From Lepidurus packardi (taxonomy: Eukaryota; Arthropoda; Branchiopoda; Notostraca; Triopsidae), in assembly GCA_023053545.1 (NCBI GenBank), contig JAKZAN010000002.1, forward strand, positions 7,002,790 through 7,066,789: a stretch of DNA of 64,000 nucleotides, read 5' to 3'. Under the pieces are notes generated by a model. It was not told the origin of the DNA and made no database searches. It saw only the letters and a program-made list of their open reading frames with translations. Positions 1-57,800 of this stretch are shown piece by piece; position 1 is the first letter of the stretch; every line of letters starts with the position of its first letter. A program made the translations under genes and the position numbers.

Positions 1-2573
1 AAAAAATCCTAAGCCTTCGACATTGGATACTTTTACTTGTTCTTCGGACTTGCTACGTTTGGACGTGCTACACTTCCTACTTTTCGTACTCTATCGGATT
101 TACCTTCTAAAAAAAGAAATTGGCCAGTTTTCGTCTCCAAACAAGAAAAAGGCTTGAAAAACGCAACAGTGCCTTCTTTATTCAAGTTCGTGAATGCATA
201 TGAGGAGGAATGAGAAGTTATCAATAATTGATAATAATTGAGACGCAGGTGAGACAATATATTTTTTATTCTATTTACGCCAGTTTTATAAACATGTCTA
301 GTGTGCCTTACGTTTTGTTCGAGACTTGGCAAAGTTTTCCAAAGAAAGTTGATTTGAGTGAGGTGAGGAGTGATTAGCAGATGCGGGTCTTGTTAGTGTC
401 AAAAGTTGCCTAATTTGATTAGGTTTCTTTTGAATGGACTATCGTTTCCGTTTTGCGCTGGTGTGGAAGCACATATTAAGGTTTTTTATACCAAGACGAT
501 GAAAAAGTGTTGAATAGACCCACCGTTTCAGTTTCACGCTTGTCGACCTGGGTTACACTCGTGCTCTCGGAGCAAAATGTTCCAAAAAAAGTACGTAAAA
601 ATTGGAGCTGGGATATTATTAATGTAAAAACAAACAAAATGAATCAAACGAAACAAATCAAATCAAACAAAATGAAACAAACGAAATGTATCTATCAACA
701 CGAACCTTACGATCCTATGGATAATTCCTATATATTTATTTTGTATATGATTTATTTAGTCAGTGAAAATAAGTATTGTCATAAGTATCGAACCTATAAA
801 TTTGCAGAGATGAGTTTTGTGTATTTATTTATTCATAAGTTGTCGTTTACAATTTTTTTTCATGAATAATGTCCCAAATATAGTAAAACTATTGCTAAAG
901 CATTAAAGCAGCTGGCATTTGCTCCGAGATATTCTCTTTCCAATTGGACTAAGACACACAGCGACTTTGTTCATATTTCGTGGAGCGCACAGATAAAAAA
1001 TGAGCTACTTGTAAACTTTTGAACGTACATCAAGCTTCTTTGCCATGCAGGACTTTGTCAGTTTGTGTAGTAACAACAAGCCGACAAGCCCGTCTAGGTT
1101 TACCTTGATAAACCGTGCCTCGCTAACCCGTTGCTCAATGACAACGACTTGGGATCCGAGAGACCAGGACCTAAGACCACTTTTTTCCAAGTGATACCAC
1201 GTCCTCCTTCTTTATTTTAATTTTGCCCTCTCTCCGTCTCTTTTTCTCTTTCCGAAGCCTAGAAATCCATTAATTAAGCCTGTACGGGAGAGCTCGACGT
1301 AGTAAGGATTTTGATTTCCTTTTAAGCGTTTGCCCGCCATAGTCAGTCAAGTCTCGTAATTCTAATTTTCCGTTACAAACTTTTGGACTGTAACTATGAT
1401 TTCCCTTTTCCGTTTTGGCCCGTTTAAAGAAAGAAAAAGAGTTCGGGGCTGCAGATGAAGAAAAGAATGAAACGAAGAGGAAATGTCCAATTAAGACTTT
1501 TCTCGCTCTCTTTTCTTCGGCGTAAGTTTTTCTCGGAAGAATTTTTATCATGATTAAGGGAGGGGGGGGGAGCTTTAAGAGAATCTTAAACAGTAAATTA
1601 CAAGAGTTTGCCACAGCTTTTGTTTAGTGCCAGTTTGGAAAGCAGTTGGAACTTGTAGAATACCGTCATTTCCGGAGCCTTTTTAGACCTCAAAAATGCT
1701 TTGACGCGTGGCTCTTTTATTTTTCTGTTTGTCTGTTTGCTTCCCTAAAAATATGAGTCCTTCCATATAACGCTTGTGTAAACACCTTTAGCGCTCTCGT
1801 CACCTGTTCATTAAAAACGCGCTGACACGAAAGGGATCTGTTTCACGAAGACTTTGTTAGGACAAGTCTCATCCTGTAATTTACTTAGATATATCGGAAT
1901 AAGTTGAGCCGTATATTCTTTGTTCCAATTTGTGTCTCTGAAAAAAGGGGACATAAATGGGTTAAGTTTGTGGTTACATGAAAGGGAGAGAAAATGAGAG
2001 AAAACTATGGGAATAAAATGAAAATAAAATGGAAAAGGGGGTTTGGAATCCATTAGCATAATGGCCCATCTCTTTTTTTACCCCGCCTTTCCCAAACACG
2101 AAGCAAAAGGGGTTTTCTAACGAGGTATTACAACCCTCGTAAAGTTTCTACCGTGTTACACCCCCGAATGAGGTGAGAATGTGAACAAGTTCTTTGGATT
2201 TGTGTGTTTAAATATATATACTCTTTTCCCTTTCCCACCGCGTTTTCTTTTGGGTTACCTGTTACGCTGTCATGAAAAAGACCTAACCTAAACCGTTCTC
2301 GCGTCTTTTTTAATTTTCAACTAAAAGGAAAAGCTTAGAACCCACAAGGTATGATGACGGCGAAGGGAAAAAGGTAGCTTGTCTTGTCAGTGACCATCAT
2401 TTGGACAGCAAACGCGTGTCCCATCAATGACCATATCAACTTGACCACGTGCGAAGGCTTTTGGCTCCTCCTGGGCTCGCTACTCACAGGTCACCCTCCC
2501 CCTTCAACACCTTTTCGTCATACCAGAGCCTTTTGGGGAAAGTTTATCTTTCCTTTACTCTGAGAACGAATTA

Positions 2574-3373
2574 CAGTAGAGGCCGCTAATTGTGACCACT
2601 GGTTATTAGAATCAGCCGCTTTATGGAATCCAATTGTAAAGGACCGATTCAAAATGGTAAAAGTCGTAGCATTTGAATCGGTTATTAGAATCACACTTTC
2701 GGATATTAGAATCAATTTTTAAAAGAATCTTCACATGTACAATAACCAAACTGCATCAACGGCAACGAGCATTAGCTCACGCTGAGCTTTTCAATAAAAA
2801 AAAAAAAAAAAAAAAAAAACTGCAGCAGTGATTGCTACATAGACTTTGCTCATTGACCAATGACATCGCTTTTGCGTGATTTTGATGAATCCTGTCATTT
2901 TCTGACTACTTCTACGCTTAGAGAAAATTCAATCTAAACTCCCCAATCAGTTAAATGAGCAGGTTATTCAATTGAGTGACCAGTTCCTTTAATTGACTGG
3001 GAAAAATAGAAGGGATAAGTGGATAACCCTACCTAAAGCGTGGGAGTAGGCTTCAAAGGTGCAGTGTTAGCTGGATTTGAGGTGCGTGGTTATATAAAAA
3101 TGGCGACGAACAAGAAAATAGTTGATGTAAATGTAAAAGAGAAGTTGCGGCTCATGAAACTTATTACAAGTTAAATTTAGAAAATTTACCACAAAAGGAA
3201 GCGTCCGTTAAATTAGGAATTCCTCAATCATCTTTATGAAAATTGTTGAAAAGCTCGCTACGAAATAAACAATAGTGGGTGCAGTGAATCACAAAAGGAA
3301 ACGTGCGGGGAAGTGTAAAAAATAGACAATGCTTTGTTTCTTTGTTTAAAACAAGCCAGTAACCCATCTACTG
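2574..3373 (+). mobile_element. pogo/Tigger-like non-autonomous DNA transposon, copy 1
   Basis: The element starts CAGTAGAGGCCGCTAATTG and ends CATCTACTG, flanked on both sides by TA (2572-2573 and 3374-3375), the target duplication of the pogo/Tc1 group. Inside, starting at ATG 3100, is a decayed reading frame. With one frameshift it gives a helix-turn-helix of the pogo/CENP-B type (KLRL, then QKEASVKLGIPQSSL). Only the 5' end of a transposase is left, so this is a non-autonomous derivative. A 24-A tract (2796-2819) and a roughly 60-bp imperfect palindrome (about 2940-3000) lie within it. Two relatives sit in SF3B1 introns in the opposite orientation. Confidence 0.8.
3100..3330 (+). pseudogene. 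Transposase N-terminal fragment (pogo HTH), degenerate
   Basis: The frame opens with MATNKKIVDVNVKEKLRL, hits a stop, then resumes after a one-base shift with a helix-turn-helix rich in the residues typical of pogo/Tigger proteins (Q-K-E-A, L-G-I-P-Q-S-S-L). There is no catalytic DDE domain downstream. The corresponding region of copy 2 at 54000-54262 (-) continues into a CENP-B-like stretch (VDDA, WIKQAS), which supports the family assignment. Confidence 0.65.
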
Positions 3374-3424
3374 TATGTAATCAAAATCGGGAACAATTGC
3401 TGAATTAACTATTACAAGACGTAC

Positions 3425-3860
3425 ACTTTAAATTTCTTGAATTATTCTTGTATTTAATTCTTGAATGATTCAAGGATTCAGTTCTTAAAAGTTTACTTTA
3501 TTTAATTCTGGATTGACATTCTCGGGAATTTTATTTCTGAAATGTTGGCTTCATTTTAAGTCTTGAATTACGGTTGGACTGAATTTTTTCTACTTAGGTT
3601 CGATTCTTGTTTTTCTTCTAGACTTAATTTCTGAACTATTGAATTATTTCTAGATTGAATTCTTCAGTTATTCTGTTGTGTTGTTAGATTTCTGGAATGT
3701 CTGTTCATTGTTTAATTTTTGTTTCTCTTGAATTCATTTTTTGGAATTATGAATTTATGGAATTATGAATTTTGGAATGGAATTCTTGAATTAATTTCTT
3801 AATTAAATATTGGATTGAGTTCTAGTTCCGCTGAATTATTTTGAGTTTTAATTTTCGATT
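3425..3860. repeat. Cryptic AT-rich repeat based on GAATT/TTGAATTATT
   Basis: Variants of TTGAATTATTTC, TTGAATTCTT and TTCTTGAATT recur at irregular spacing for about 430 bp. No unit is exact for long, so this looks like an old, mutated short tandem repeat rather than a satellite. It begins about 50 bp after the right end of the pogo-like element. Confidence 0.5.
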
Positions 3861-6800
3861 TTTTAAAAATAATTTTTCGAGTTCAAAGAATCGATTACTG
3901 GTTTAGACGTTTAATCCAACTGTCCGTCCATTGGCTTTTGAGACTTTAACCAGTAAGATTTTGAGCGATAGCAGGGCATCGTTGGCGCATGTAATTCGAC
4001 TTGCGTCATATCTGTCTCAAATCGCATGAAATGTCCGTTTCAGAGTTTTTCTGACAACTTTTCAAGTCTTGCAGTTCATTAAAGTACAGTGCTATATGTA
4101 TCGTGTAAGCAAGTTTCTTTGGTACGTTCATATTGTGCATGCTGCTCTTATTTGTCACGGTAATTGTTTCCTCTTCAAAGCAAAAGATATTAGCCCGGTT
4201 TAATCAAGGGAAGCGTTTATGCCCAATGGGTAAAGGATGTAAAAATGCAACGTGAGTGTGGTTTATATCTTTCCAAATGGATCATTACATGACGATTTTA
4301 AACAGCTGTGGCTCTGTACATGTACAGTAACTACGTAATAGAGCCAATGGAGCTCCCTGCCAGCTCATAACTCTCCATCTCCACCTGCGCGTGCAATTAT
4401 TAGCGCGTACAAACAAGAAACAATGTGGCACCGATTTCACTTCACTTCGGTTAAATCACTACTGGGCTGATTATAGCGTCCCGGTGAATAGTATGTTTTT
4501 TTTTTCCCCTCTTAGGAAGCTATATACTTGCCTCCAAATATATATTGCCCTACTATTCATCAAAAACGAGTTAGGACTGTTGGGAAAGCTTGGGCTTCCT
4601 TATATTCTATTCGACGCATTTTTCTTGAGTTAAGCCTCCTTTTGTTAGCCTACAGGAAGTAATATTGTCGTAGGCGTTTTTATTGTTATATATGCGCTGT
4701 ATATATAAGCGTTGTAAAACCCGAAAAAAAAGTGATAGGCTTTTCACGCCAGGTGTGTGTCGGATCTGGGAAACGTGTGCAAGTGTGAAAACGACAGACT
4801 TGTCCGGCCAGTACTCTAACCTCTCAAAGCAAGCAAGATTCTTTGAAAAACTCGCACACATCTCAGACATTTGCGAAGGAAGTGTGACTTGTTAAGGTCT
4901 TTTACCTGGTTTGCCAAGGAATGAAGTAAAATAGGGAAGGATATACATATTAAAGGAAAGGAAGGGGAAAAGTGGAATTATGGGGGAGTTTTCTCGCTTT
5001 TCAGCTTTTCCAGGGATTAATTTAGAGAGGTTTGGCTCCTTTTATGTGAAATAATTACAGTCGCAACAGAAAAAGAAGGAAAAACCTGGAAATGTTGGAG
5101 TATTTTCCTTTCCAAGCTGGGGAATGAACTTACGAAATATGAGTTACGAGCGTATGCGTAATTCAAAAAACTTACAACACTCGAAAGGGGGAAAGAAAGG
5201 ACAATCACTTATAGTGGAAATTTTATCTTCCGGAAAACGGAAAATGAAAAACAGGGAAACTTAGCATGTCAAGTTAATAGGAAAAAGTGAGTAATTTGTT
5301 ACAAAAAGGTGCCAACATCTTAACGAATTATCGTGACCAGTCTGTGTGCAAACCTTTGGGGATTTACTGACACGTTTTTTTTTTTTTTTTTTTACTATTT
5401 TTTTATTATTTCCTTCTCTTCCAAATTCCTTTATTCAAGGTTTCGCAAGACTATTGTGACCGGTCACGTGCTGCCTTGTACAAAGAACCATTGAATAAAA
5501 CTGCCTAGGACAGTGGAACTCTAAGGAATTGATTGTTGCGACTGTAACAGGATTGATTGTTGTAACGTTTTTAACGTATCTGGCCCAGAAAAATGTGCGG
5601 GTTTTCAAAGTGAGTGAAGTTTTTCCTGTGCTAAGCAACGGGTTCACTTCGTTTATCCAACTCGTAGTTAAAAATTCAGTGTTGGCTCGGGTCCGTTTTT
5701 ATTATTGTTGTCCCTTTTGGAAGCCCTCCTGGGAGTTTGGACACGACTTGATTATAAGCTTCACTGTTGACCAACAATGAAAATACTACTAACAGCGAGA
5801 GAATATTCGGAATTTTTTGAGGCATGTAAAAGGAAATGTTAGAGATTTGGGAGTCAAAAGCATGTAAGCACCCTTTGTAGCTTGCGGGAACGGATCCAAG
5901 ACAACATGTGAGTTGTGCATGTGAGTCGATCTGAGTTTTTCACATCCTTAGTAACTGCACGTAACATTGGTATTATTTTTTTCAATCTTCTTTTGACCAG
6001 CGTCAACAACATGAAATTCCAGTGCAGAGCAATATTGCGCAAGAGTTGCACAAGAACTTACTGGTAATGTGAGATTGCGGGGCAAAAGTTTGCGCGAAGC
6101 TTTCTTATATCCGTTAATCAATAGTTTGCCAGACAATAACAGGTTTTTAATGCTCGAGGTTTCTAGAACAATTGCGCCAAAAGCAAAAAAAGCCATTGCT
6201 CATCTGAGAAAGAAACTCCCGTTTTTGGCAATGGGGAGTCCGTGTAAATTGCCAATTTATGCGCGAAACAATGTTTCATACATGTTGGGCGAGATTCAAA
6301 GAACAATTTATCTATCCAGGTTCTTCCCCTTCAGAACTCCTTAACCCCCGAAATTGCGTTTTTTGGCCTTGCGCCGTCCCCAGAAAACCTTTAATAAGTG
6401 TTTCGGCGCCAGACTTTTATATTCTTTCAAAAGAAACTAAAGGAAATCTATTAAAAATAGCCTTACTTGCTATAGTGTGCTATAATGGAGTAAAAAAAAA
6501 AAGTAATTCTAAAAAGTAATATAACAAAAAGTAGCACGAAGAGGGAAATTAGTGCGAATGAACTCGATCCCCTTCTTCAACGTCGCTTCATATGAAAAAG
6601 GATGCCACAAAAGCCTTCGTATATATGTGTTATGTTTGTATGAAATGCGCAGATTTGCATAAGCTGACGTCATGTTAGCTGTGTGCTGCTTGCCTATCTT
6701 TGGAGGATTTAGCATTTTCCATTCCTCTTTCTAAAAAAATACCCCAAGTGTTCATTTTGTAGTAACTATTTTTTGTTTAATTTTTGGACAAGAAACATCC

Positions 6801-9284
6801 TTGCAAAGAAGCCCTGGGTAATAACTCCTCCCTTTTTCCAGAAGTCAGCTCTTACAAGTGAAACCAAAAAGAAAAAAGCGGAAAATAAGAAATAAAAAGC
6901 CCCAGCCTCATATCGTATGCATGATGGTGGAAAAGAAAAGAGTATTACAAAACCTATAGAAACGTTTTGCTTTTTGCCTTTTTCCAATGGCATTATATAA
7001 ACCCTTTAGGGCTTATGGAATGCCAAGGCTGTCTCGTCTGAAAACAGCTAAGAGAATACAGCCTCCCGGCAGAGCTTCTCCCGGCACTCACGCTTTTGCT
7101 CTCCGCAGCTCCAAAATTTCACGATGCATGTGTGTGGATGTGGATGTGTGTGGAAAAGGAGAATTTCTGGGGAGAAACACGCCCATAGCGGAGCGGAGAG
7201 GCTTTTCATGCCTGTCTCGTGCGTTCTATACGGCTTGTGGATATATGAAAGTCCTGTATTCTTGTACTTTTTTTTTTTTTTTAATCTTAAGACCCCAAAC
7301 GAGGTCCGGTTCAGTAAAAAACGGTTTTATTTATGTCTTTTACCTTCACGCTCATACTTTTTTATATGTTGATGCATACGAAATGAGGCGAGACCAAAGA
7401 CCTTTGGCGCAAAATGGAAAACCTGATAGATTCTTTATCCCACAGAGTCCTTGATAAAAATTCTTGAGAAAAAAATTTAAACACCGGAATTATCCTGTAA
7501 TATCTTTTTTGGGGTAATTTTTCGTCGTTTTAGTTTTTTTTTTCTTAGTATGTGAATGTCTAATTTTTGGGTGTTGTCAGTGAAGAAGAATTAAAAGATG
7601 CTGGAAACATAATTTTTTGTTAGGAGAAACGTCAGTGTCAAGTATAATTTTTTTTTTTTTTTTTTAAAAAAAGAAAAGAAAAAGACTGAGACAGTGTAAG
7701 AAAGTTTAAGAAAGACTTGGCATATAAGGGAAGAAAGACATGACCAGCAGGAAATGCTTTTGCCATGCAGCAGCGAAGCCTGCTGCTGACCTCACCATTA
7801 TTCTATAAAAAATAATAAACAGCACAAAAAATAGCGACTTTTTTCTTTCCTTCGTTTTGAGACCCTCGCAAGCTCTATTCCTCCCCGGTGCCCATATGCC
7901 ATCAGTATTTTTTATGAGCTAGACACTGCGCAACCCAGCCACGACTTTATATTACATTTGGGAGCTTTGAAGAATCTTTTACACCCGAAATGGTTATAAA
8001 ATCTTAAACTTCTTTTTTAAAGCCAGCTCTAAGTAAGGGGGACAATTAAACCAAAAGTTAAGTCTAATTTTAGCGTTAAAACTGTTAGAAATGAATGCTT
8101 TCAAAAAAAGCTCATTGCTATATAAAGTCTCGCTCCCGTCAGCAATCGCTTAATATTTTAATAGACAAAGAAACTTTTTTTTTTAAATTTATTTTAGCTT
8201 TTTTAACGATAGAAGGTAAGTTAAATGAACTGTTGAAAATTTTCAATTCAAGGCAGTAGTACCGTTACGTCTCTAAACAGGGCAGATTTTAATTGAAAGT
8301 TTGACACTAGAATTAAAGTAAGCTAAATTACCTTAACAAAAGCGTAGAATTATTATACACGTAAAATTACGGGTACTGGAATTAGAAGCGTAATATAATT
8401 TAGTTTACGGTTGAAACGCACAAAATTGCTGTACAAACTTTATAACTATGAGAAAAATTAGTAGAATTCAGTAAGAAATGTGCATCATTGCAGTGATTTC
8501 TGTGTAAAAAAAAATACCACTAAAGATTACGAATTCAAAATCACGGAAAACGGAATTTGAAGGTGACTTAATAACAAAACCCGTAAGTCTGACAAAGGAA
8601 GTATCGTGAACGTATCGTATCGTAATCGTGAATAAATGCAGTAAAAGAAATCCTAATATACATCGTAACTTAGGTTTTTCACAGCAGGCTATGCAAGGGA
8701 TAGTTTATTTTTATACATTTAATCACTGCTTCGAAAGTAATTCTATTTTTTAATGTACCCAATCAATCATTTCATTTGAAGAATAAAGCTAGCCTATGAA
8801 GGATACCATGACGTACACCGTTACTTGACCAAAGCTTGCTCACTTTTGCCCCTTGATCAGCCCATGGACTGATGTATGGCTTACATTTGGTAAAGGGATT
8901 ATAATGATGTCATGCTTCGTTAGAGTTAATGGTCAGATTAATGGCTTGAACGATGCGAATCTCGCCAGGTCTCAAGGCATCAACTTAAGCTCACTAACGC
9001 GCGATTGGCAACTCGTTTTTTTACAACTCTCTTATTAAAAAAGATCTTGAATGGAAGTACTTTGCGTTTACTCGAGCAAAACGATGGTTTCTCCTACCAT
9101 TCCTATTCTGTCCCAATCCAGTAAAGGCCATTCAAACATTACGTTAACGTGAACTTGAAAGAAAAGCAATAAACAAAACCCACTTCTGACCCATCCCTTC
9201 ATTGTTTGTCCCATTAGGTTGTAAGGATGCTCCCGAAACGGCACGCATTGAAGATAAGAAGTGGTTCCTTGTCCCATCCCCAAC

Positions 9285-12200: not shown

Positions 12201-15200
12201 GCCAAACTACAGGCTTCGGGCCAGAAAGATGTGGCTAATGTTCATTGTTGATGGGCAGTGGCGCCATTAGTTTTGTTGTCAAAGACTCTGGGCAACGTGT
12301 GACAGATTTTTTGCTCATTTGTAAGTCAGTTCTCACCTTGTTTTGAAAGCTAATTTCCGTTATAGAAGAGCAATTCTCTTTATTCCATCCTGCACAGTCT
12401 TATTTCTTAACTTGTCGCAATGGTTTCACTGACCTCTGTGATAACTAACAATGAATTTTAAGTTTGGCAAAGAAAGGGGGAGCACTTGTGCCGCTAAAAC
12501 TAGAGTGCGCTGAAAGAACAACGAAAAAGAGTCACGTGGCAGACTGCTGTTGGTTGATTCCAAATTTAAATATAGATTTACAGTTGCAAGTCAAGTAATG
12601 GCGTCTTTATTTAAATAAAAGACCGGAATATCTAACTGGGAACTAGACACTGACGCCTCTGATCTTATCGCCTTTTGAACTTGGTGAACGTAACCGAAAA
12701 AAAGAATAAAAAGAGAGCAAGCCAAGTGTTGTATGCATTAAGAACATTGTCAGCGATTGGCCTTGGCTTTTGTGTTAACCTTTGGCCGGCCAGCGTTCAA
12801 AAAGCAGGTAAAAAGTCACGAAATTTTTGGGTTCGAAGCTCTTATTTCTTCCAAAAGGGCGGAGAAAAGCTCCAAAATCCTTATGTGTCGAGAGACTGTG
12901 GTCAGCATCCTTCATATGCGTTGTTGTGGTTGGGCTTTGTGGTAGTTTAGCTGGGTTGTAGCACCCCCAAACGCCCTCAAGCCCTTTTCAGCTTGTATAC
13001 TTTTTTGTTTTCGTACTCTTTACTTCTCCTGTTAACTATTTATGTGTTGTGTAATGACCCCCGACGCCGCCTTCAGCCTTAAACAACAATTTTCCCTGAA
13101 CTTTATTCCCTTGCCACTGCGACTTGCTCCCCAACGCTTCTTAATTCGACAGTAAATTCCAATGCAACTAATTACGAATCCTGACAGCAGCTTGGTAGAG
13201 CAGTTGGTCCATACATCAATTCACAAAGAACCCTGTTTTCTTGATTAGCACAGATTCCTTATTACACAGAGCCAAAGTTGTGTTACCCTCTTCAAATTGT
13301 ATTAATGATGGCTAGTCAACATGGCTTTGATGGATGGGCTCCATCAAGGCGCAAGAGTTACGTAGAACTCCCCAAGTGTTTTCACAATTGCCTACGGTTT
13401 CATTGTTCAAACTTGAGACATACAAGAACTTAGTAGCAGCCTTAAGCGACTTCCATTATCGCGGTTTTGGGAGCAACTAGCTTATTTCGTAATGAATTTG
13501 ACCTTTCCAGAAGGAGCCAAAACTTTACTGATCTTTTTTCTCCTCCGACTTTCGGTGGTCGAAACGTGCAATTTGAAAACTCGAAGCATTTTGAGGCCAT
13601 CCCCTAGCTACTCCTGGGAATTACGGAATTACTCCGAAAGTTGGGACTGAAAAACAACAAAACTTCCGAAAACCTCTTCAGCAATGCGAGTTATGTTCCG
13701 AGAAAAATGTTTCCAATTTCGGGATACATTTTCTTTTAACATAGCTCACATTCTCTTCATCTTTTCACTTCATCCAAGCGAAAACGAAAAAGCTGCCAGG
13801 GTGGCAAATAGAAAAGAAAATGTGTAAAAAGTGATGGAACATTTTTCTTGATCAGGTTTTCGGTTTTCACTTAATGAACAAATGGGCTCAAAAAGCTTCA
13901 GCAGTGTTGGCGTTCCGGACCATCAGCTTCTTTCCTTAACTATCTATAAAAAAGAAGAAAAAGGAAAAAAAAAAGGAAAACAGTCATATAGCACCGAGGG
14001 TTCCCAATGCTATCGCTGTTGGTACGAGATGGATGAGTCTGTTTTGTCACTACGTGTGTTTTCTCCCATCTGTGACGCTGTAATGAAAGGTATCCGTTGG
14101 GGCTATCATGTGACATGTGTGATATGAAGCTCATACTATTACCTGAGCTATTCAGGTGAAGTGCGGTGTGAACAGGACCTTGATGGATGACGACTTCCAT
14201 TTAGGAGGGGGGTCCGTGGGCACTTCTATCCCGCCGTGGTTCTCTTAACGGTCCTTAAATCCATATACTTAGAAAAAAAGAAAAAAACAGCTCATCCGTC
14301 AACTCCTGACATCCGACCGAGTCTATAAAAAATGTCAAGAAATAACTACCAAATTTCGGGCTGCCTTTTTACAACGTTAGATTTCATGTTATATCTTTGA
14401 ATGAATGTTCACTAAGGCTCTCGTATACCTTAGCTTATTGATGCGAAAGAGTCACAGATGGCACTGATGTTTGTTATTGTTTTGCGACAGCTTTGCATAA
14501 GAAAGTAAAAAAGAAATATATAGTTAATTGCTGGCAAATTTTCAAGTCTTCTGAAAACTGCAGTTTGTGCTGTAGCGGCACAATTTCTCAAATCATGTCG
14601 TCTAACTTTCGAAACAAGATTTCTCGAAAACGGTTGCTCAGATTTGAACGCAAGGACATATTTTTATTGAACGTACTTCACATAGTTGCAAACTTGATTG
14701 GCATGTTACAAATATATTATTCATTAGAAAAAGGTAGATTGCTTGTGTCCTAACTATTAGTAAGTTCACATTTACTGTCAACGCATCTTTTCACGAAGTG
14801 TACTGGTATTCTCAAAAAGGTGTTCCGAATTTCCCCATGCTAACGGCCTATACCGAGCTAAGGTATATGGGAGCCTTAACTTAATTTGTATCGATTTTTT
14901 ATGAATCTATTTTATTTTGTTTCCTACTCTTTAGTTCACCCTCCGTCCCCTCATCTTGAGCAGAAATCCCGAGCCGATATTTCGCGGTCCGTTTTGGCAT
15001 CGCCCCGCCCCTCATCCATTGCTGTCCCGCAAACCAACGGCAGCAGTAGCCATCACGTGGGCGTGGCTTCGAACCCACCGACTCCCCCGCACACGCCCAA
15101 ATTGGATCCGTCCTTAGCAGCGTTGCAAGCGCATATGCAAAACGTCCTTCGAGCAGCGGCTCAAGAAAACCATGCCCATTTGACCAATTCGCACGGATCC

Positions 15201-18200
15201 AGCTCGGGACTTTTCCCACCTTCTGCAGCCAATTTGTCCTTACCTCGAACCAATTCACTAGACCGGGTAAGAATATGCTTCAACCAGTTCTACGATATCT
15301 TATTTGTTCCGAGAAAAAAATTCGAAAAATAATAAAACGGTAATGGATGTGTTTTCCTGTAGTCATGCACCTTCACACCCAATATGGCAGCATACATGGC
15401 CATGGCAGCTTCCACATCCTTCGCACCTCCACAACAGCAGCTTTTGATGCATGGCCGTTGAAGCATATTCTTACCCGGTCTAGTGAATTGGTTCGAGGTA
15501 AGGACAAATTGGCTGCAGAAGGTGGGAAAAGTCCCGAGCTGGATCCGTGCGAATTGGTCAAATGGGCATGGTTTTCTTGAGCCGCTGCTCGAAGGACGTT
15601 TTGCATATGCGCTTGCAACGCTGCTAAGGACGGATCCAATTTGGGCGTGTGCGGGGGAGTCGGTGGGTTCGAAGCCACGCCCCACGTGATGGCTACTGCT
15701 GCCGTTGGTTTGCGGGACAGCAATGGATGAGGGGCGGGGCGATGCCAAAACGGACCGCGAAATATCGGCTCGGGATTTCTGCTCAAGATGAGGGGACGGA
15801 GGGTGAACTAAGTTCACCCTCCGTCCCCTCATCTTGAGCAGAAATCCCGAGCCGATATTTCGCGGTCCGTTTTGGCATCGCCCCGCCCCTCATCCATTGC
15901 TGTCCCGCAAACATTCGAAAAATAATAAAACGGTAATGGATGTGTTTTCCTGTAGTCATGCACCTTCACACCCAATATGGCAGCATACATGGCCATGGCA
16001 GCTTCCACATCCTTCGCACCTCCACAACAGCAGCTTTTGATGCATGGCCGACGATTGGAAGAACGAGGCGGTAAGTTGGATCAAACTTCTTTTTATTTTA
16101 TTTAAAAAAGACAGCCAGTTTTTTCAAGTTCTTTTCGGTCTAAAATTGGTCTAGGATTACAAGGCTTTGGGGAAGAGTTGAAGGCAGCTGCAAAGCTTGA
16201 CTTAAAACTCTAAAAGGATGGACCGTACGTTTTTTTTACCATTCCTTTCTCTTTTATAAAACTCCTTTAATTTTTGTAAAAGACTTTTTTTTTTAAGTTT
16301 TGGGCAATGGGAAGCCTCACCCAAGACGAAGATGAGGGGTTTTTGGGTCCCAAAAATTGCCAAGCATATTTGTGTGTAGTAGGACTTTGGGGAAAAACGC
16401 ACCTGGCCTTCTCTTCTTGTTTTCTCGTCATATGTGTATTAGCAGGACTGCTCTAACCAAACTTTTTCCTTTTTCCTTGGCACTTTTTCCCCCTATCGCC
16501 GAATAAGGGCCATTTGATATTGAAAGGGTTAGTACTATCTCAAAAACTCCCCTTTCTTTCGGATTTTATCCATTTTATCCACTTTATCCACTCCACCGGT
16601 TCTTACTTCCCACCTCTTTCAGAAAGAAGACGAAAATGAAAAAAAAAAGACTTTAAAGTTTCGGTTTTAACGTGAACAAGCGAAGAAGGCCGACAATGAT
16701 GTCGGAAACGTTGAGAAAAGGGGTGAATTCATGCCAAACGTTTTTCCTCAACCACGTATGAAGGGGTTGAATGCCGAACCCGATAGAACCCCTTTTACCT
16801 TTTTCTAGATATTTTTTAGATTATTTTTTTTCCCTTTAACCCAGCACCTTTTTTTATTGATAACTGCATCATCTCTCTAGCATATGGGGTTAGATGCGCC
16901 TTTTTTTCACTTAAGGGAAAGAGGGGGGGATTGGAACTCTCGGAAAAAAATCTTTTTAAACCTTGAATAGGATTTTAAGCCTCACTCGCCGGATCTGAGA
17001 GCAGGGGGGGGGATACAAGGAAGAGACAGCAAAGAACTAAGAGGGTGAAATGGGAAATGGAAATCTCCGCGTCCAGGGAAAGGGTAAATTTTAGAAATGT
17101 GGCATCGCACCCTCATCATCTGGCGACCCCTTCCCTGTATTCAATTCACATTTTCAATCCTTTCAATCAAAAACGCTAAAGAGCCCGAAGAAGAGGGGGT
17201 CCGGTTGGAAAATTCTTGAAATTGGGCAAAGGGGGTGAGCCATAAGTTGAAAAAAAAGAGTAGGGATGGGAAATTTCGTTAAGTTTAAGTTTTTTTAAGA
17301 TGAAATTGTGTCGTATTTTTTTAGAGAAAAGAAGAGAAGGATATGATGGGGGGGGGGGGGTTCGCAGGCGTTATCGAAGCTTTTTATCAACTGAAAAGAG
17401 GCCCCTGTGTGACACAAAACACAAAACCAACCCCTTTAGCGACCCATTTTGGGGGGACAGAGACATTTTTCATAATAATCCGTCACCCTCGCTTTATTTC
17501 CTTTGGCCCAACTGTTATTCCAATTGAGACCAGACCAGACGGCGTATGTACGGTTTTAAAGCGATGATAAAGGGGAAAATTTAATCCAGATTAAGGCTTT
17601 GCCGTAAACTAAAAAGAGTGAGAGATATTCTGTTCAAAGGGCAGGGACTTGGGCTTCAAAACGCCCCCACTCACTTTTTGGGTTCGTTTATTTATTGCTT
17701 TGTTAAGGAGTAAATTCAATGTTGGCTTGAGTCTACGGTTTAATGGTTGGCGCGTTTCTCAGTCCCTTTTTGGAACATTCTTAATGAGTTTAAACTTTTC
17801 ATTGTTGACAAGTTTTTGTTTGTCCTCGTCTGGACATTTATAGACATTTATTTAGTTAAAAAGCTTTCATTGTTGGGTCACAATGAGGACAAACTAGGAA
17901 CTTGGGCAGTGCGTTTTGTGTGGATACTCGGAGTTAATATTCCAAGAAACTGTCATTGTTGGCTCGAGTCTCGTTGTTTTCGTTATGGCCAATTTTTTGC
18001 CCTTCTGTATTTCGAGGCGAGTTGGAAATTTATTGATGCCAAACGATGAATATAAAACTTGGGTATTTCATGCCTGTTGGATAAACTTAGTGTACATTCG
18101 TAAATTGTAAAAAAAAAAACAGAGTGAAATTTGGGATTCGAAGCGGTCAAAAGCAATATCCTTTGGAGATTCATTTTAAGTGATATTCAAGCTACTTGGG

Positions 18201-20030
18201 TTCTTTTCACTTGGGTCTTTCTATGAATACGATTTCTTAATATTAAGTAGAGAAATGCGTGAGTGTCATAGTAAAAACAGGAATCTTAAGGGTCCCGTAT
18301 ACCTTAGCTTATTGATGCGAAACAGTCACAGATGGCATTGATGTTTGTTATTGTTTCACCAAAGCTTTGCACAGGAAAGTAAAAAAAAAAAGAAAGAAAT
18401 AGATAGCAAATTGCCGGTGAAGTTTCTACGCTTGTTTTGCTTCTGAAAAGTACAACTTGTCACCAATTTGCTGTAGCAGCACATTGTCCTAAATCAAGTC
18501 GAGAACTTTCGGAACAAGATTTCTCAAGAACGGCTTGTCAGGTTTGAAAGCAATTTAAAAGAAAAGTTTTCTTTTGTTAGCAGCTAGTGCACTATCAAAG
18601 GACAGATTTTTAGTTAATGAATTGCTCATAGTTTCAAACTTCATTTGTATATTGCTAATTCATTACTTATAAGAAAAAAACGTGCTTTGCTTGTGCACTA
18701 CCTTTAAGCAAGCTCAAGTTTACTGCAAACGAATTTTGTCCTGAAATGTACTGGTTTTCTCATAAAGTTGCTCCGAAATTCCCCATGGTAACCGCCTCTA
18801 TCGAGCTAAGATCTACGGGGGCCTTAAACGATCCGAATGGCATGTTTTTGAATTACTTTTCTAAAATACAATATAATTATTTTCTACATGTACCACACGA
18901 AAATTCTAAACGCTTAATAACTTCTTCTTTTTATGGGTTTAAAGAGTTCTGGAAAGACATTCCGAGCTTCCCGGTTATGTATAACGCATGAGTGGAGTTT
19001 TTTGTTTTCATAACGAAGAAGCTTTTTCCTTTTTAATTTTCAAAGGTTTCACGTTACTTTTTCATGCAAGCCAAGCCCCAGCCAAGCCGGATATTTCGCT
19101 TGCCAGAGTTTCGAGTTGGACGAGTTCAATGTGACTGCTCCACACGCTCGTAAAACTGTACAATTAATTTCCAATTCGCCCAACATTCACGCGTTTGTGT
19201 CTTGGGTTATTTTGCAACGTTAGTACATTCCAGAGGCTCTTGAAAGTTTTACACGATTTTATAAGTCTCCCTCCTACCCTCTTCATATCTCTTCCCCCAT
19301 CTTATCCCCCTCCCCGTTTTTTATTGTTCAGATATAGCTTTTGATTCCGCAACAACGGTTAAGCAAGTTGCTCAGCGCATCTTTTTCAGGCTTTTCATGG
19401 TTCCTAAATCCCAGAAAATCGAAAGCTCACCTTTTGATTTTTTTTTTCATTTCCCTTTTTCTACCACATATCTAGTTTGGAGAGCATTAGAACCGTTCTT
19501 TTCAGATTCCATTGAAACCTCCACTTTTTGACCCTTTTAAGAGTGAAAAAAGGCTTAGCAAGAAATTCAATAGGAACCCCTTGCTTTTTTAACTAAAAAA
19601 AAAAGGAAAAAAGAAGGGACGCCCTTTTGGATCTGGACGTGGAAACCCGTTAGTTTCGTGAAGCGTGTAGCACACGTTAAATGCCACATGTGTGGATGCT
19701 GAGTAAAGAGTTTTGGGGAATCGAAATTCACCCTATTCATGATAGGGTTAAAAACGGGGAAAAAGGGGTTTTCTCGAGGTTTCTCTAACGGAAATTTTTT
19801 TTACCTTATTTTTTTTTACACATAGCTTATTCTGTTGAGCTACTCCCATCCAGCATGAATCTCACATGTGCGTGAAAATGAAGCTGTGTTCAAAAGAACA
19901 GAAAAAAATCACCCGCCGCCGCCTGTTTTGCTGAAATGGCAGCTGCAACTTTATTTTTTTTTTTTTTTAACTCTTTTTTTTTTAATTAGGCAATTTTATC
20001 CTTCCCTCCCTGAAAATGTGCTGGATTCGT

Positions 20031-23000: not shown

Positions 23001-26000
23001 AACAAGCGTACAAACTTTGCCGGCAATTAGCTATCTATTTCTTTTTTTACTTTCTTACGCAAAGCTTCGGCAAAACAATAACAAACATCAGCGCCATCTG
23101 TAACTGTTTCTCGTCAATAAGCTAAGGTGTACGGGAGCCTTAACTACTTTTTAATGCGTTAAGTTTTTTTTTATATCCCATTTGTAAGTACGCTTAATTC
23201 CCTACAATGATAAGGAAGATTTTTAGGATAGAGAAGAGCGACTTTGATCATTTCAGATTGTAATCGTTATCCTATTCAACTTATCCATCTAGGAGGGCTG
23301 TGGAGAGGTTATTTTGCCCCAAGACAAGCCTTTTCGACGTCTGGATCACTTCAAGATGCATGAGTATACGCGTCGAATGAGTTTGGGGGTCAAAGACAGC
23401 CCTTCGCCGAGCTTCGTTTTACATCCAGGTGCATTAGGAGCAGCCATGGCAGGCGCTTGTCCTCAGGGTTTTACGCTGGACTCGGTTTTCCGACGGAAAC
23501 GGGGCCGTCCGCCCAAAAATCGCGTCATCGAAGTCTGGAATGAATGCGTAAGTGGTTCAAATTAAAATGAATAGAAGAGTTTTAATCTCTTTCTTTTCTT
23601 CTTTTTTGTTTGTCAATTTCCTACCTAGATGTCAACGGCTGCAGGAACGGCCGACTTGCCTCAAGCTATCTTCACTAGTTTTAAACTGCCCAAACCGAAC
23701 TCGCCGCCGTTGCCTCATTTCTTGTCCCCGGCGTCTTTCGCAGCTGTGAAAGCTGAACCGATGAGCGAGACGAGTGCTGCTGCGGCAAATGTGACCCAAA
23801 CGAGCGCTATTGCTGCTTCACCGAGTAGAATGAGCGATTCGCCTCTGAAAGGAGATGCGGAAGCGGCTGGGTCCGGAAGAGATAGTTTTTACCCGATTCC
23901 GGCAGGCTCGGTTTGTCCAGACCCTTTCTGTCTGCTCGCTGGAACCTCCCATTTCCATTGTGCTCATCCACGTTGCTGCTCGGCCTTAGAATCAGCTTCC
24001 GCCTTGGGACCGCACGTACAACAATTGCATAGTCAACAAGATATTCTGGAGGGCTTCGTCTACTTTGATCGTTTGGTGGACTGCAGATTACCCACATGCA
24101 CATAGTAAGCCCCTTTCCATGTCGGAATTGTATTAAAAGACTAAGCCATTCATCAATTAATTTAATTCTTTAATAACTTAATAGTTTAAGGATTAGATTG
24201 CTTAATGATTCATTCGTATAATTATTACTTTTTAACTTCCAGGAATGAATAACGGCAAAATATCATTCTTATTAGTTTTCCGGTAATAATTTCTTAGGCA
24301 CTAAAAAATCTATTCATAAGCGTGAATAGCGTAATCATTTTTACCATTATTTTCTCAACAATCGTTTTATTAATTCCTTTAATACTCGTTTTTAATTGGG
24401 CAAAATCAAGTGTACTCCATTTTTTCTTATTTAACGTTTTTCATTAGAAGACTAATGTGTGCCTGATTCCATTTTCAGTAATAAACAAGAAGGGCACTTC
24501 CACTGCGTACGACCGGCGTGTGGCTTAACGTTCACGAAGCCCTCTGTAATGTTATCGCACGAGCATTGCCGCGACAATAAAAGCAACGAAAACGGGGAAA
24601 ATGGCTCGTCTCGACCAGCTTCCGCGTCCACATCCACCGAAGATAACACCTCGCCGAAGACTGTGAAAGCGGCTGGTACATTCTACCCTATTCCCGCCTT
24701 CAAACCAGAACGGTCTAGTTCGCGAGACGGATCCTGCTCCCGTTCGCCTTCACCTTCTCCTTTACCTGTAACGACGCCGAGTGCCAAAGACGTTTTACAA
24801 CACCAGCATAGGAATCAGTCGCCTTTAGCGTTGATCAAAGCCGGGCCTTCTGCCCAAGCCATGTCCCAGATTGAAATGCCGTTGTTGTACGGTCCGGCTT
24901 CTTCATGCGGCCGGCCGTTTTGCAAACTCAAGAGACGCGAGCATTATCATTGCGTAGTCTGCAATCAAGCTTTCTCGGAGCTGGAACGACTCCAGCCCCA
25001 TATGCTCAAACACTGCTCGGGTGCGTTGCAATGGGGGAACAAAGAGGCAGATGACAGCGATATGCACCTTTCGAGTTCTATTGCGTCTTCCAGTGCGCTG
25101 GCTTCCGCCCAACAAAGACAACAGCAAGTTGAACTCCTGTTGAATGGTCCGCCCGAGTCTTCCTCGCCACTTCCCTTACCGCCACCGCCTTACATGCCGC
25201 CGTTTGGCATCCTTCCTACACATTCAATGTCTCCGAGCTTTTTGCCACCACATTTGCCTCCGCTCTATTCCAGTACGCCTTTTTCGCTGCCTTTTGGGGC
25301 AACACCCCCTCAACTCTTGGGCTCCAAACGCCCCTCACCCTCGCCCACAGACCTGTCACCCACCGACGCGAAGAAATTACGCTTCCCAACCAGCATGAGG
25401 ATACTCAAAGATGAACCTGTGCCAGAAGGGTACATCCGTTACAGGTACTTTCCCTGTCCCTTTTAGAATTCCGTTTTCATTTTTCTTGCTCCTTTTTACG
25501 GTTAATTAACTTGATTTAAAGACTGAATCTAATTTAGAATGATAGTGGAATGCTATAGTTTCTGGGTTTGCCGCTTCGCTATGTAAGGAATTCAGCTGCT
25601 ACTGATGTAGCATTTCGGGAGACGGTTTTGCTACGAGCTTCTAGATAGCTCCCGATAGGGGGCTATGCAGTTGTGTCCCAACTGCTCCATAAATGATGGA
25701 GCTACATTTCCACGTCTCATTTGAGTTAGGTTAAGTTAACTTAAGTTAGGTTAGGTTAAGTTAGGACTCCCCCCTTCCCTCAAGAGCATAGCTCATCATC
25801 TCCATTCCCGTCCCTTGCTCCCGAAACGCATCTTTTTTTAGTAAGGGAGATATTGCTAGATGGCAACATATACCGGTTGCAAACTAGGGAAAAGCTTCTC
25901 CCGAAACGCTATAATTAGTTACGTGTAAGAATGCCTAATTCCGTCTCGTTACGTAACAGGAGTGCTTAGGTGTGACTGTGGTGTTGCTAAGCAACACCAA

Positions 26001-51866: not shown

Positions 51867-54800
51867 TTACAACACATAGTCTAACTCGTAGCGAACATAT
51901 TGATTCTTGGGGTCGTTTGTTATTCTCGGATAGCCTGCCACGAGTGCATCCTGTCCTCCAATGTAGAGCGAATTATAAATCTTCCAATAGACGTCGCGAA
52001 CTTTGCGGGCGGGATGAAACAGCCCTTGCAAGGAATACTGCAAGATTTTCAAGGGTCCCAGCGAAACTCGCATGCCTTCAACGGCGTCCATGAAGGCTTG
52101 CACCAAATGGGGCGATGTTTCAAAGATGTTGGGCCAAACGTAGTTCAGCAAGTGAGTTAGGGCATCTTCACAGCCAAATCCGTAAACGCCAAGCGCCATA
52201 TGTTTAATGGCTGCGCAGGAAGTCTGGCGATGGACCAGGTCGCGGTCCATCAGCGCATCTTCCAATAAAGGAGTGACGGCGTAGATGTAATCTTTGCCCA
52301 TCTCGCCAATATACTCGAAGAGGAAAGACAACGATTTAAGGACTCCGTTTTGTACGTTAAGTTCTGGTACTCGGTACTCATTCATCAATCCGGGTAGGAC
52401 AGTGAACGGGGAGCAAGTTTCCGCTACGATGGCAATCGCCACCGTGGTGCAAACTCGGTTTTGACGTTCCTGTACTTTTAAGTTGTTCAGCAAAGTGGCC
52501 AATACATCGTGGGGACCAATAGCTTTAGCGATATAGCCGAATGTGTTAACAGTAGCACGTCGGATAGCTTTTTTGTGAGCTTTGAGCAATTCCAACAACT
52601 CAAAGCAGATTCGCATCCATTCGCGGGCGGAGACGAACTCGGGTCCACGATCCGCAATACGGCCAACCAAGTCAATACAGTTCTCTTGCACTTTTTCGTG
52701 CCGGTTTTTCAAAATGGGAGTCAAACGGGGTAGAAGGTCTTTGATGGGCGGGGTCATCTTCGTCATACCAATCACGTTCACGATGCCTTTCAAAGCGCCT
52801 AAAATTGATCCCAATACTTCGGGATATTCCTCACCCAGGTATTCGTACAAGACAACGCCCAAATGGCCCATCAGTTTCTCTTCCTGGCAAGTTTTCATCA
52901 CTCCGGCAATGCGCGAAATCAAGTCAGCTGCTTGTTGACGCACCTAAACGTAAGCAATATAATATTAGGTTTGCTAAGAATTGTATATACAATTAGCTAT
53001 AAAATTAGATTTTCAAGCTCACCTTGGCGGATTTGTTGTTCAAACGCCACAGAATGGTACCGCAAATTTGGGGCAAATATGGCTTCACCCTTTTGGCAAG
53101 CGAATTAACAACAGTACCAAATCCATTCAGCATGACCACGTCATCAGTGGCCGTTTGTTCCTGGAAGGCATACAAGATGCCGTCAATGAGCTGTTCTTCC
53201 AATCGGCTGTCGATTTCAGCTGCTCCCAAGTTGGCCAGAACTTTCTCGATGGTTTCCAACACCATTTTCCTGTAAGCTTCATTTTCGTCCTTCAAATCAT
53301 CCACAACTCGGCCTACCATCTCTGCCGCACCTACTTTATTGGCAATTTCCACCGTAGTATCCACCAGTTGCCTAAAAAAGCCGAAAGTTACATAACAGTA
53401 AACGGTAAATGGTACAACTAAACGTAATTAGTTACCTGTAATTTCTTTTGTCTAACGCCATTCGATGGTTCCAGAAATGTCGGAAATAATGGGGCAAAAT
53501 TTCTTCTTTGATGTATTGAGGCTCCACACCGTCTGTGGCACAGCATTGCTTGACTACTTTGAGGACAATTTTCTTCATTTCTTCGTCCGGCGACTGAAAC
53601 TCGCGAATGAGGATCAACATCACTTCGCGGGTATAATAATTGGCGTACTCGGCGTCCATTAAAGGGATTAAGTAGCCAATGGCTTTCAAAAACGCAGCCA
53701 AACCTTTGCCACGATGCGTACGAATGCCTTTCCATAACGGTTTCAGCACCGAGTCGAAGCTTTCGATACCGTATGGCGTAGCGGCTTCAGCCAACGCAGC
53801 TAATCCTAACGCAGTAATCGTTCGCACCTACCAATAAACAGTGTTAGATTTTATATCCAAAGCAATTAGCTTGCAAATATACAATATATGACGCTTATTG
53901 TGATCACGTTTGTCAAGTGAGTATTGATTCTACTAAGAGGAGATTCTAATAACCAAAAATGGGAAATATGCAATACAATGCTAAGAGTAATCAGCGCGTG
54001 TGAAACGAACTGGCTTGTTTAATCCAAAGAAACGATGCATCGTCTACTTTTTGACACTTTCCCACACGTTTCCTTTTTCTAGACCCACTATGTTTAATTC
54101 GCAACGATTTTGCAACAATTTTGATAGAGATGATTGAGGAGTTCCTAACATAACGGCTGTTTCTCTTTGTGGTATATCTTTTAGATTTAACTTGCCATAA
54201 GTTTCAATGAGCCGCAATTTCTATTTTACGTTTTACAACTTTTTTTTCTGATTCGTCGCCATTTTTATATAACCACGCTTCTAAGGCACAACTAACACCG
54301 CGCCTTTGAAGCCTACTCCTACGCTTAGGTGGTTCTCAACACGATATCCCTTCTAATTTACCCAGTCAATTAAAGGAACTGGTCATTCAATTGAATAACC
54401 TGCTCATTTAATTGACTGGGAGTTTTGAAGGGATTTTCACCTAAGCGTAGAAGGATGGGAATGACAGGATTGGTCAAAAGTACGTGAAAGCCATGTCATT
54501 GGTCAATACGCAAAGTCAATGAAGCAATCACTACTGTTGTTTCGCTATTGTATATGTGAAGATTCTTTTGAAACTGATTCTAATATCCGAAAGTGTGATT
54601 TTCATAGCCGAGGAAAATGCTATTAATGTTATAATTTTGAATTGGTCCTTTAAAATTTGATTCCATAAAGCGTCTGATTCTAATAACCAGTGATCACAAT
54701 AAGCGTAAATAAACCAAGATTACTGTAAATAAACCAAAATTACTGTAAATAAACCAAAATTACTGTAAATAAACCAAAATTACTGTAAATAAACCAAAAT

Positions 54801-57800
54801 TACTGTAAAAAAAACAAGATTAATGTTGTTGTTACTTTTTGTTGTTCATCGACTAATCCATGTTCCACAATCTCGACCAAGCTCCTCAAATGTGGCAGAA
54901 TGGCGCATCCCATGAGAATCGCAATTTGCTGAACGATTTTTATACCCGTGTGGCGTGCTTGCCAAGATTTCTTGGATCGGCAAACGGCTTTCAAAAAGGG
55001 CAACAACGACGGAATGCCTAACGCGGAAGCCACAACTGCAAAAGCCCGGGCAGTCGTATTTCGGACGTATTCATCAATATTATCGATATCAGGCCTCATC
55101 GTGGAAATCATAGTAGCCAACCCGGCAGCTTTTGCCAAATTTGAGATGATCTCACGTCCTTCAACTCTGGCGTAGTAATCTTCGTCAATCAAGAGAGGTT
55201 CGATGACGACCAAAATCTTGTGGACGTACGGGCGCACCAAATCGTCCAACTTGTAAAGGACTCGGTCGATAACTTTGACCAGGAGATGCCGTTCTTGGTC
55301 CTCCAGCGTCGGGGACATGAGCAACGGCAAAATCTGATTGAAAAGCGGCCCAGCGCCAAATTCTCTCGCTTTATCCGTAATTTGCCTCAAAGCAGATTTT
55401 CGCATTGGAGGTGTTCCGTTTTTTATCTTAAGCAGCAGCTCCATGATCTTCCTTTCCTTCTTTTCCTCGGAGCTTAGCTCATTTTCATCCACGTCCATTA
55501 ACAATTTATCGAAATATTGGGCATCCTCAGGTTTTAAGAAAGGCAGGGTGGGATCCTTGGGTTGATTGTCCATAAATTTGGCCGATTTTTCTTCTTGTTG
55601 GATAAAGAAACCACCGGGTGTAGCTCCCGAGGCTCCTCCACCGCCCATAGGGGTGGGCGTGGCCAATAATTTCCGAGCTGGGGTGCGAATAGGGATGTAG
55701 CCCGCAGGAGGGGGTAAAATCTTATAGCCCTCGGGGAAAATAGCGTCCAAATCTTCATCAGAAAGTGGGCGGTTCCTTTCATCGATTTCTCGTTCCCAAC
55801 GGAACGCTTGCAACTGCTCTGGAGTCATAGCCACGAAATTTCCAGGCGTTGGAGTGGCCATACCCATAGCTTTCGGGCCAATAGGCGTAGAGCCCGATGG
55901 CGTCATCATTCCCATTGAGGGAGTGGAGGGGGTCATGGGGGTAGAAGGAGTCATGCCCGGAGCTGGCGTCATGGGCGTCATTCCTGGAGCGGGGGTTTCG
56001 TCCCAACGTGAACGACGTTTCGAAGCGGATGGAGTAGGCGTGTCTTGAATCAAGTCTCCGCCTCGGTCCTGTCTGGGTGTTTCTGCCCAACCTAAAACAC
56101 AAAATTATTTTTTTCTTCTGTTATTTAACAAGTTTTGACCTATAAGGTTTTTGACGTTCTTGACCTTCTAGTACAGTAGATGCCGCTTATTGTGATCAGT
56201 TTGTCAAGTGAATATTGATTTTATTAAGCGGAACTTCTAATAACCGAGAATCGAAACTACGTCCTACAGATTAGACTGACCATATTGTTTGTTTGTTTTG
56301 TATTGTTTATGTTTGCATTGTATTGTTTGTATTGTTTATTTAGAGTATTGTTTATTTCATAACGATCTTTCAACCATTTTGATTGAGGAATTCCTGGTTT
56401 AAGCAAAAGGTGTCGTTCAAGTAGTTGATCTTTTTTTTAATCAAAAGATGGCACTACTGTCATACCCCTATACCATGAGACTTGTACAACTTGAAAATTT
56501 AGAAGAAACTTACCAATACAATTGAAAAACTCTTTTCTAAAATATCTTAATGAAAATTTTAAGTAAATCAAGTATATAAATCTTGCGACGCAGCGTTCTG
56601 ATATTTTAAAAAAAAATTCAATTGTATCGTTAAATTTCTGTTTCAAGTTGCATAATTCTCATGTAATATTTTTTGAGGTATGACATCTCAGGACAAAAAA
56701 AAAAGATCAACTACTTGAACTACACCTTGGCCTTTAACTACCGCTTCCCTTTGTGGCAAATCTTCTAAATCAAATTGTCATAAGTTTCAATGAACCGTAA
56801 TTTCTCTTTTACATTTAACAAGTTTTTATGTTGTTCGTCGCCATTTTTATATAACCACACGTCTAAAGCACAACTAACACTGCGCCTTTGAAGCCTACTC
56901 CTACGCTTAGATAGGTTCTCAACACGATATCCCTTCTAATTTCCCCGTCAATTAAAGAAACTGGTCATTCCATTAAATAACCTGCTCATTTAATTGACCC
57001 ATTAAAAGAACTGGTCATTCAATTGAATAACCTGCTCATTTAATTGACTGGGAGTTTAGCGGGGATTTCCTGCGAAGCGTAGTAGTAGGCTGTAAATGAC
57101 AAGATTGGTCAAAATGACGTGAAAGCAATGTCATTGATCAATACGCAAAGTCCATGTAGCAATGACTACTACAGTTTCGTTACTGTACATGTGAAGATTC
57201 TTTTGAAATTGATTCTAATATCAGAGAGTGTGATTCTAATAACCGATTGAAATGCTATGAAGTTTAACATTTTGAAACGGTCCTTTTAAATTTGATTTCA
57301 TAAAGCGGCTGATTCTACTAACCGGTGATCCCAATAAGCAGCATCTACTGTAACTAATTATTTATTTACTCATTACCTGATAGTTTATTCATCCAATTGT
57401 TTTATTATTAAGTTTTTAAGTTGTTAAGTTATTAAGTTTAAATTTTTTGCTATTTTGTAAGTACAGTTTCAGCCCTCGAATTAATCTTAAGATATGTTAG
57501 GTTTCTACATTAAACTACATCTACTGTAACTGAAGAAAGTCAATGTTAAAAAGCGGCATTTACCTGAGCCATGTCCTGGCGTTTCACGCTCTGTTCTCGG
57601 CGTCTCATCCCAGCGATTGCGTTTGGTTTTCGGCTCGTCTGTACCAGTGTGCCCTGGCGTCGCATCCCAGCGATGGGGCGTAGCTGCTACTCCAGGCGTC
57701 TCGCCACCTTTCATCCTAGCAGGCGTTTCATCCCAACGGGCCACGGCCGGCGTCTCGGCTTCCCAAGCAGATCGCTTCTTGCCTACAGTGCCATCTTCGG

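Follow-up and report, generated by a model that had tools for sequence, protein, structure and literature searches.

An inverted triplication/duplication within a castor-like gene of the Lepidurus packardi assembly: young structural allele or chimeric molecule?

How does a coding exon come to be followed, within a few hundred bases, by an inverted copy of the exon before it, a partial direct copy of that same exon, and a second copy of its own splice acceptor? We addressed this question in a 64,000-nt window of the genome assembly of the notostracan Lepidurus packardi (GCA_023053545.1; 108.6 Mb in 344 contigs), which covers positions 7,002,790 to 7,066,789 of contig C2 (JAKZAN010000002.1). All coordinates below are positions in this window, and the evidence on the origin of the structure is the sequence of the assembly. 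The rearranged segment lies in a gene that a preliminary description had called castor, placing the event at exons 3 and 4. No analysis confirmed the name or the exon numbers; we retain the numbers of that description and use "castor-like" as a working label.

The repeats are truly present in the assembly. In its direct copy, exon 3 (14935 to 15266, forward strand, 332 nt) has an intact frame, open throughout, with an acceptor AG at 14933 to 14934 and a donor GT at 15267 to 15268. A plain 96-bp intron (15267 to 15362, forward strand, GT...AG) ends at acceptor 1 (AG at 15361 to 15362) and leads into the front of exon 4 (15363 to 15457), which together with the intron end makes up the forward-strand block 15320 to 15457. 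At junction 1 (15457 to 15458), this front runs directly into an inverted exon 3: pairwise alignment with the reverse complement shows that 15457 to 15811 (355 nt) is a minus-strand copy of 14931 to 15284 (354 nt), with no substitutions and a single indel, one added G that turns GGG into GGGG. The second turn, at 15811 (junction 2), opens a partial direct copy on the forward strand (15811 to 15912) that matches 14933 to 15034 at 102 of 102 positions, creating a near-perfect palindrome (15708 to 15912) with 102-nt arms around a 1-nt center. At junction 3 (15912 to 15913), base 15034 is joined to base 15320, an internal skip of 285 nt. There follows a second copy of the intron end and exon 4 front (15913 to 16050, forward strand; 138/138 identical to 15320 to 15457), with acceptor 2 at 15954 to 15955, and then the remainder of exon 4 (16051 to 16070, forward strand) and its donor at 16071. 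A repeat finder returned the same blocks whether it was given 4.5 kb or the whole window.

These alignments place the block boundaries of the preliminary description correctly to within one base and bear out both its doubled exon 4 front and its near-total identity broken by one homopolymer indel. Its statement that exon 3 occurs three times with splice sites holds for the order direct, inverted, partial direct, but the third copy lacks both pyrimidine tract and donor, keeping just the AG and the initial 100 bases of the exon, and the two splice sites that the inverted copy does carry are in antisense. Likewise, removal of a 593-bp insert restores the 96-bp intron and a 115-nt exon 4 identical to 15956 to 16070, although that insert can be placed in more than one register, as it ends in a direct duplication.

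Traced along the undisturbed locus, the sequence runs forward as far as 15457 and, after a first turn that skips 173 nt, reads backward from 15284 to 14931; it then runs forward from 14933 to 15034 and forward again from 15320. Copy number is accordingly three over 14933 to 15034, two over 15035 to 15284, one over 15285 to 15319, and two over 15320 to 15457. An arrangement of three copies with the middle one inverted is thus present for 102 bp only (14933 to 15034), the rest of 14931 to 15457 standing in two copies or one. All extra copies derive only from within 14931 to 15457 and are exact save for the one indel, as in an insertion templated from adjacent sequence through multiple switches in both orientations. 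Perfectly complementary arms of 226 and 131 nt are beyond the reach of chance. We class the structure as a small inverted triplication/duplication that skips 285 bp internally. A DNA search of the same 108.6-Mb assembly, in which very common words were skipped and only the best candidates scored, returned only this locus and its own inverted self-matches. A transposable or dispersed element is not favored, given that this search matched no other locus.

Did a molecule with these joins exist, or were pieces of one locus stitched together by an assembler or gap filler? A locus with no match elsewhere and extra copies that are exact are what a stitching error would give. However, overlap joins need long shared ends, while alignment finds only 1 (15457), 1 (15811), and 0 (15912/15913) shared bases at the junctions, and no N is present in 13501 to 18000. 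Overlaps of 0 to 1 base are unsuited to an overlap-based assembler join, and the junctions were therefore most likely present in the sequenced molecules. We consider a misjoin of any kind very unlikely and reject its overlap-based form as the principal explanation, since the joins lack shared sequence of overlap length.

The same junctions bear on mechanism. The preliminary description read the structure as the signature of fork stalling and template switching (FoSTeS) or microhomology-mediated break-induced replication (MMBIR), or else of a chimera. The MMBIR model was built on disease junctions with 2 to 5 bp of microhomology (PMC2621351). As a null expectation, we simulated 20,000 triples of random joins at the same locus without the insert. 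These joins shared a mean of 0.70 bases per junction; a total of at least two shared bases occurred in 57% of triples, and all three junctions had fewer than two in 57%. Relative to these 20,000 triples, the three junctions have no above-chance microhomology of a few bases. They match random local joins, and the FoSTeS/MMBIR label is therefore only partly supported: the self-templated direct/inverted/direct anatomy and the choice of two candidate origins stand, and the microhomology signal is missing. We do not claim membership in MMBIR, whose junction feature was looked for and not found. End joining, or a polymerase needing little homology, accommodates such low overlap best, and an overlap-based assembler join accommodates it poorly. 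The low overlap argues against such a misjoin and, less strongly, against chimeras of phi29 amplification, for which at least two shared bases are reported in 93.5% of inverted and 90.9% of direct joins between segments less than 10 kb apart (PMC1855051). Among reported inverted triplications at PLP1, microhomology was found at one or more junctions in 14 of 16 patients and blunt joins in 2 of 16, and a 27-kb deletion on one duplicated copy had a junction with "a bp of microhomology" (PMC4352052).

In our view, the somewhat more probable origin is one recent and local error of copying, either in the animal that was sequenced or in its lineage. The strand copied to 15457 would have resumed on the opposite strand at 15284, run back to 14931, turned almost exactly on itself at 14931/14933, run forward to 15034, and resumed at 15320 before continuing onward, the ends being joined with almost no shared sequence. 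In a two-step alternative, an inverted triplication with palindromic turns may have arisen first, with later deletions trimming part of the palindrome; two yeast inverted triplications are reported to have secondarily lost one palindrome arm (PMC4689423). The copy-number series 3-2-1-2 over 14931 to 15457 equals a small duplication/inverted triplication plus one deletion. Moreover, three coordinated joins that lead back to the onward sequence, the unique locality, the little overlap, and the absence of a similar pair in our sample of the assembly favor a copying accident.

Several observations weigh against this reading. The lack of above-chance microhomology is one. It is suspicious that an allele expected to harm its gene should stand in the assembly with no trace of an intact form, and equally that one turn should be only 1 nt wide. 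The absence of divergence between copies counts toward a chimera. The inverted segment, at 355 nt, exceeds the 128-nt maximum of the great-ape gold-standard set of template switches (PMC7954356), and from our sample the frequency of other such events can be placed no more tightly than below about 12 per Mb (our own estimate, from 0 in 250 kb). Finally, the assembly by itself does not separate an allele from a chimeric molecule that entered the consensus, an explanation to which we assign a substantial though smaller chance.

Such a chimera would have formed in vitro, through a strand that switched or folded back while the library was being prepared or the whole genome amplified, with one molecule entering the consensus at this point. 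Among chimeras of phi29 amplification, 406 of 475 were reported to be inverted, and 337 of these join segments less than 10 kb apart (PMC1855051). In amplified PacBio reads, palindromes were reported at 47.8% and 43.6% in two Arabidopsis samples and at 11.8% in a gorilla set, compared with 0.5% in an unamplified control (PMC6218980). The probable ciliate and bacterial contigs described below would be expected if a small animal had been sequenced whole, a setting in which amplification is common, and the single indel is compatible with a thinly covered stretch. The joins here are likewise inverted and local, yet phi29 joins mostly share at least two bases (PMC1855051), and none of the three joins here does. 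Furthermore, a random chimera would seldom contain three switches within 600 bp that return to the exact onward sequence. None of these points bears on fold-backs from library making in which no shared bases are required. A missed-adapter (palindromic) read alone is disfavored, given that the first turn skips 173 nt and the third join 285 nt.

If molecules of this kind had commonly entered the consensus, other inverted pairs might be expected elsewhere in the assembly. We scanned the window, 20 stretches of 10 kb, and 5 further 10-kb stretches, with window and sample together making up less than 0.3% of the assembly. At a first threshold (at least 60 nt, 95% identity, starts within 5 kb), no other inverted pair was found in the window, the first 20 stretches, or eight short loci (L004 to L011); direct pairs occurred in stretches L017, L028, and L030. 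At a second threshold (at least 28 nt, 96% identity, within 3 kb, low-complexity rows dropped), applied to the window and all 25 stretches, the window yielded one other inverted match, a 32-nt pair (56407 to 56438 and 56697 to 56728), and the first 20 stretches likewise only one, a perfect palindrome of 34 nt in L028. L023, L024, and L030 had small direct pairs, and no pair was found in the last five stretches. Near-identical inverted pairs longer than 34 nt were thus absent from all 25 sampled 10-kb stretches (0/25), a point against the chimera. Pervasive palindromic artifacts were not seen at these thresholds in the sampled stretches or the rest of the window. More diverged or more distant inverted repeats are present in the window and are of a different kind. 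Protein-kinase exons, considered as a way to sample inverted pairs across the genome, were uninformative, as the best 128 of 988 candidates lay mainly on small, ciliate-looking contigs.

The scan returned several ordinary repeats. In L028, a plain tandem duplication of 234 bp with 99.1% identity (7777 to 8246 of that stretch) shows that recent ordinary local duplications do occur in this genome, a point in favor of the allele. L030 contains a tandem array whose unit recurs about every 23 bp, judging from self-match offsets (3131 to 4236), and in L017 two identical direct copies of 222 bp lie 4.6 kb from each other (1196 to 1417 and 5826 to 6047). A dispersed repeat family in both orientations, with pieces 61 to 92% alike, occupies 2571 to 3118, 54232 to 54705, and 56814 to 57353 of the window.

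The sample behind the assembly was probably of mixed organisms. On the small contigs C73 to C337, kinase matches commonly run through in-frame TAA or TAG, and only five of these rows, drawn from the best 128 of 988 candidates, have TGA, one each; these look like contigs of a ciliate with TAA and TAG as sense codons, either a cobiont or a contaminant. Contigs C1, C2, C4, C5, C6, C21, and C38 hold many COX1 matches, mostly partial, with in-frame TGA, which suggests abundant nuclear copies of mitochondrial DNA, and C4 carries a near-twin pair at about 0.975 Mb (forward) and 1.022 Mb (reverse). On either side of the COX1 of L007 are frames that, by eye, we take to be ND2 and COX2, together with a gap resembling tRNA-Leu, a gene order that points to a likely pancrustacean. 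Stop-free COX1-family frames occur on C43 and C52 (nearly full-length) and on C214 (cut by the contig end), the last of which also carries two stop-free kinase frames; all three are probably bacterial contigs.

Which gene would be affected, and how? We presumed castor/CASZ1 on the basis of a motif of paired zinc fingers, and searches of Pfam and PDB sequences neither confirmed nor ruled out that name. No Pfam family was found at an E value of 0.001 for any of the seven reading frames of the gene region; at E values up to 5, five of the seven gave weak matches, all under the curated cutoffs and only some of them C2H2-like. One frame searched against PDB sequences gave 19 weak matches (best E value, 0.015), mostly to generic zinc fingers. 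The gene region also holds three copies of a dispersed repeat of about 100 bp, 87 to 89% alike (14413 to 14516, 18287 to 18390, and, in reverse, 23038 to 23143).

When exon 3 (14935 to 15266) is spliced to the second exon 4 copy (15956 to 16070), translation stays open. Spliced to the first, it is followed by 32 codons, the last completed by the first inserted base, and then by an in-frame TGA on the forward strand (15459 to 15461), directly past junction 1. Skipping of exon 3 (332 nt) shifts the frame. The 23-nt stretches compared at acceptors 1 and 2 are identical, and a donor-like site at 15498 in the inverted copy lies downstream of the stop. An intron of 96 bp is spliced by intron definition, which favors the proximal acceptor, and damage to the gene would therefore be expected. 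If the rearrangement is real, use of the distal acceptor 2 is predicted to leave the protein unchanged with a 689-bp intron. Such an allele should be hypomorphic; only where the distal acceptor prevails would it be neutral.

Might the structure instead have been retained for a function? The predicted RNA fold of 14931 to 15912 reaches −823.6 kcal/mol, against a mean of −324.0 (standard deviation, 8.2) for 20 shuffles, and if the rearrangement is real, the transcript is predicted to form a hairpin of about 350 bp, with exon 3 folded on its antisense copy. Hairpin RNAs that yield silencing small interfering RNAs are reported in Drosophila simulans (PMC10317233). The locus could thus be a newly born hairpin-RNA source made from the gene's own exon, from which small RNAs would target that gene; with acceptor 2 in use, the 102-bp palindrome would be wholly intronic. 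MicroRNA genes in Arabidopsis were reportedly born by inverted duplication of their target genes. However, the strong fold arises because the inverted copy is present and hence is no evidence of function or use, and the absence of substitutions gives no sign of age or selection. We regard a retained functional element as very unlikely. More speculative still is a self-targeting hairpin RNA caught at birth, in which one step would place an inverted exon copy in the gene's own intron, the duplicated acceptor would preserve the gene, and the spliced intron, with a 102-bp perfect hairpin matching its own mRNA, would bring about negative autoregulation by RNA interference.

If the rearrangement is real, it offers a young, base-resolved example with three undamaged junctions, in which one local event duplicates a splice acceptor and creates an antisense exon hairpin, and it would allow a test of whether a second acceptor rescues such an allele. 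Should it prove to be a chimera, the lesson would be cautionary: coding exons in chromosome-scale assemblies can take in sequence from fold-back molecules. Both outcomes belong to known kinds of event, and neither is a new system. A limited literature search turned up no paper on a palindromic inverted triplication in an arthropod assembly, although one may exist in print.

How, then, does this locus compare with known systems? Symmetric and asymmetric tandem inversion duplications of bacteria have a direct-inverted-direct order with one palindromic and one trimmed turn, as here. The present case is far smaller and lies in an animal gene, and we liken the two by anatomy only. One shared base per inverted junction speaks against origin-dependent inverted-repeat amplification (ODIRA) at the tight turn at 15811; a later deletion could have removed the original turn at 15457, and interrupted repeats were not searched for separately. 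Chimeras of phi29 multiple-displacement amplification share local inverted joins with an intervening gap, but those reported are two-segment joins, usually with at least two complementary bases, in contrast to three joins with 0 to 1 base (PMC1855051). FoSTeS/MMBIR events resemble the locus in their several switches per event and local templates in both orientations and differ in the 2 to 5 bp of microhomology reported at disease junctions, compared with 1, 1, and 0 here (PMC2621351). The inverted triplications reported at PLP1 have the same direct-inverted-direct order with an inverted middle, a deletion in a duplicated copy on record, and some blunt junctions, but they span hundreds of kilobases rather than hundreds of bases, and no preexisting inverted repeat is evident at the turns here (PMC4352052). 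Four-point short-range template switches likewise insert a local reverse complement to give a perfect inverted repeat, with a return point behind the first switch; the great-ape gold-standard set has inverted pieces with a median of 12 nt and a maximum of 128 nt, whereas ours is 355 nt and needs a further direct jump from 15034 to 15320 (PMC7954356). The closest kinds are thus inverted triplications and short-range template switches, with 355 nt being long for the latter and far below the scale of human disease events.

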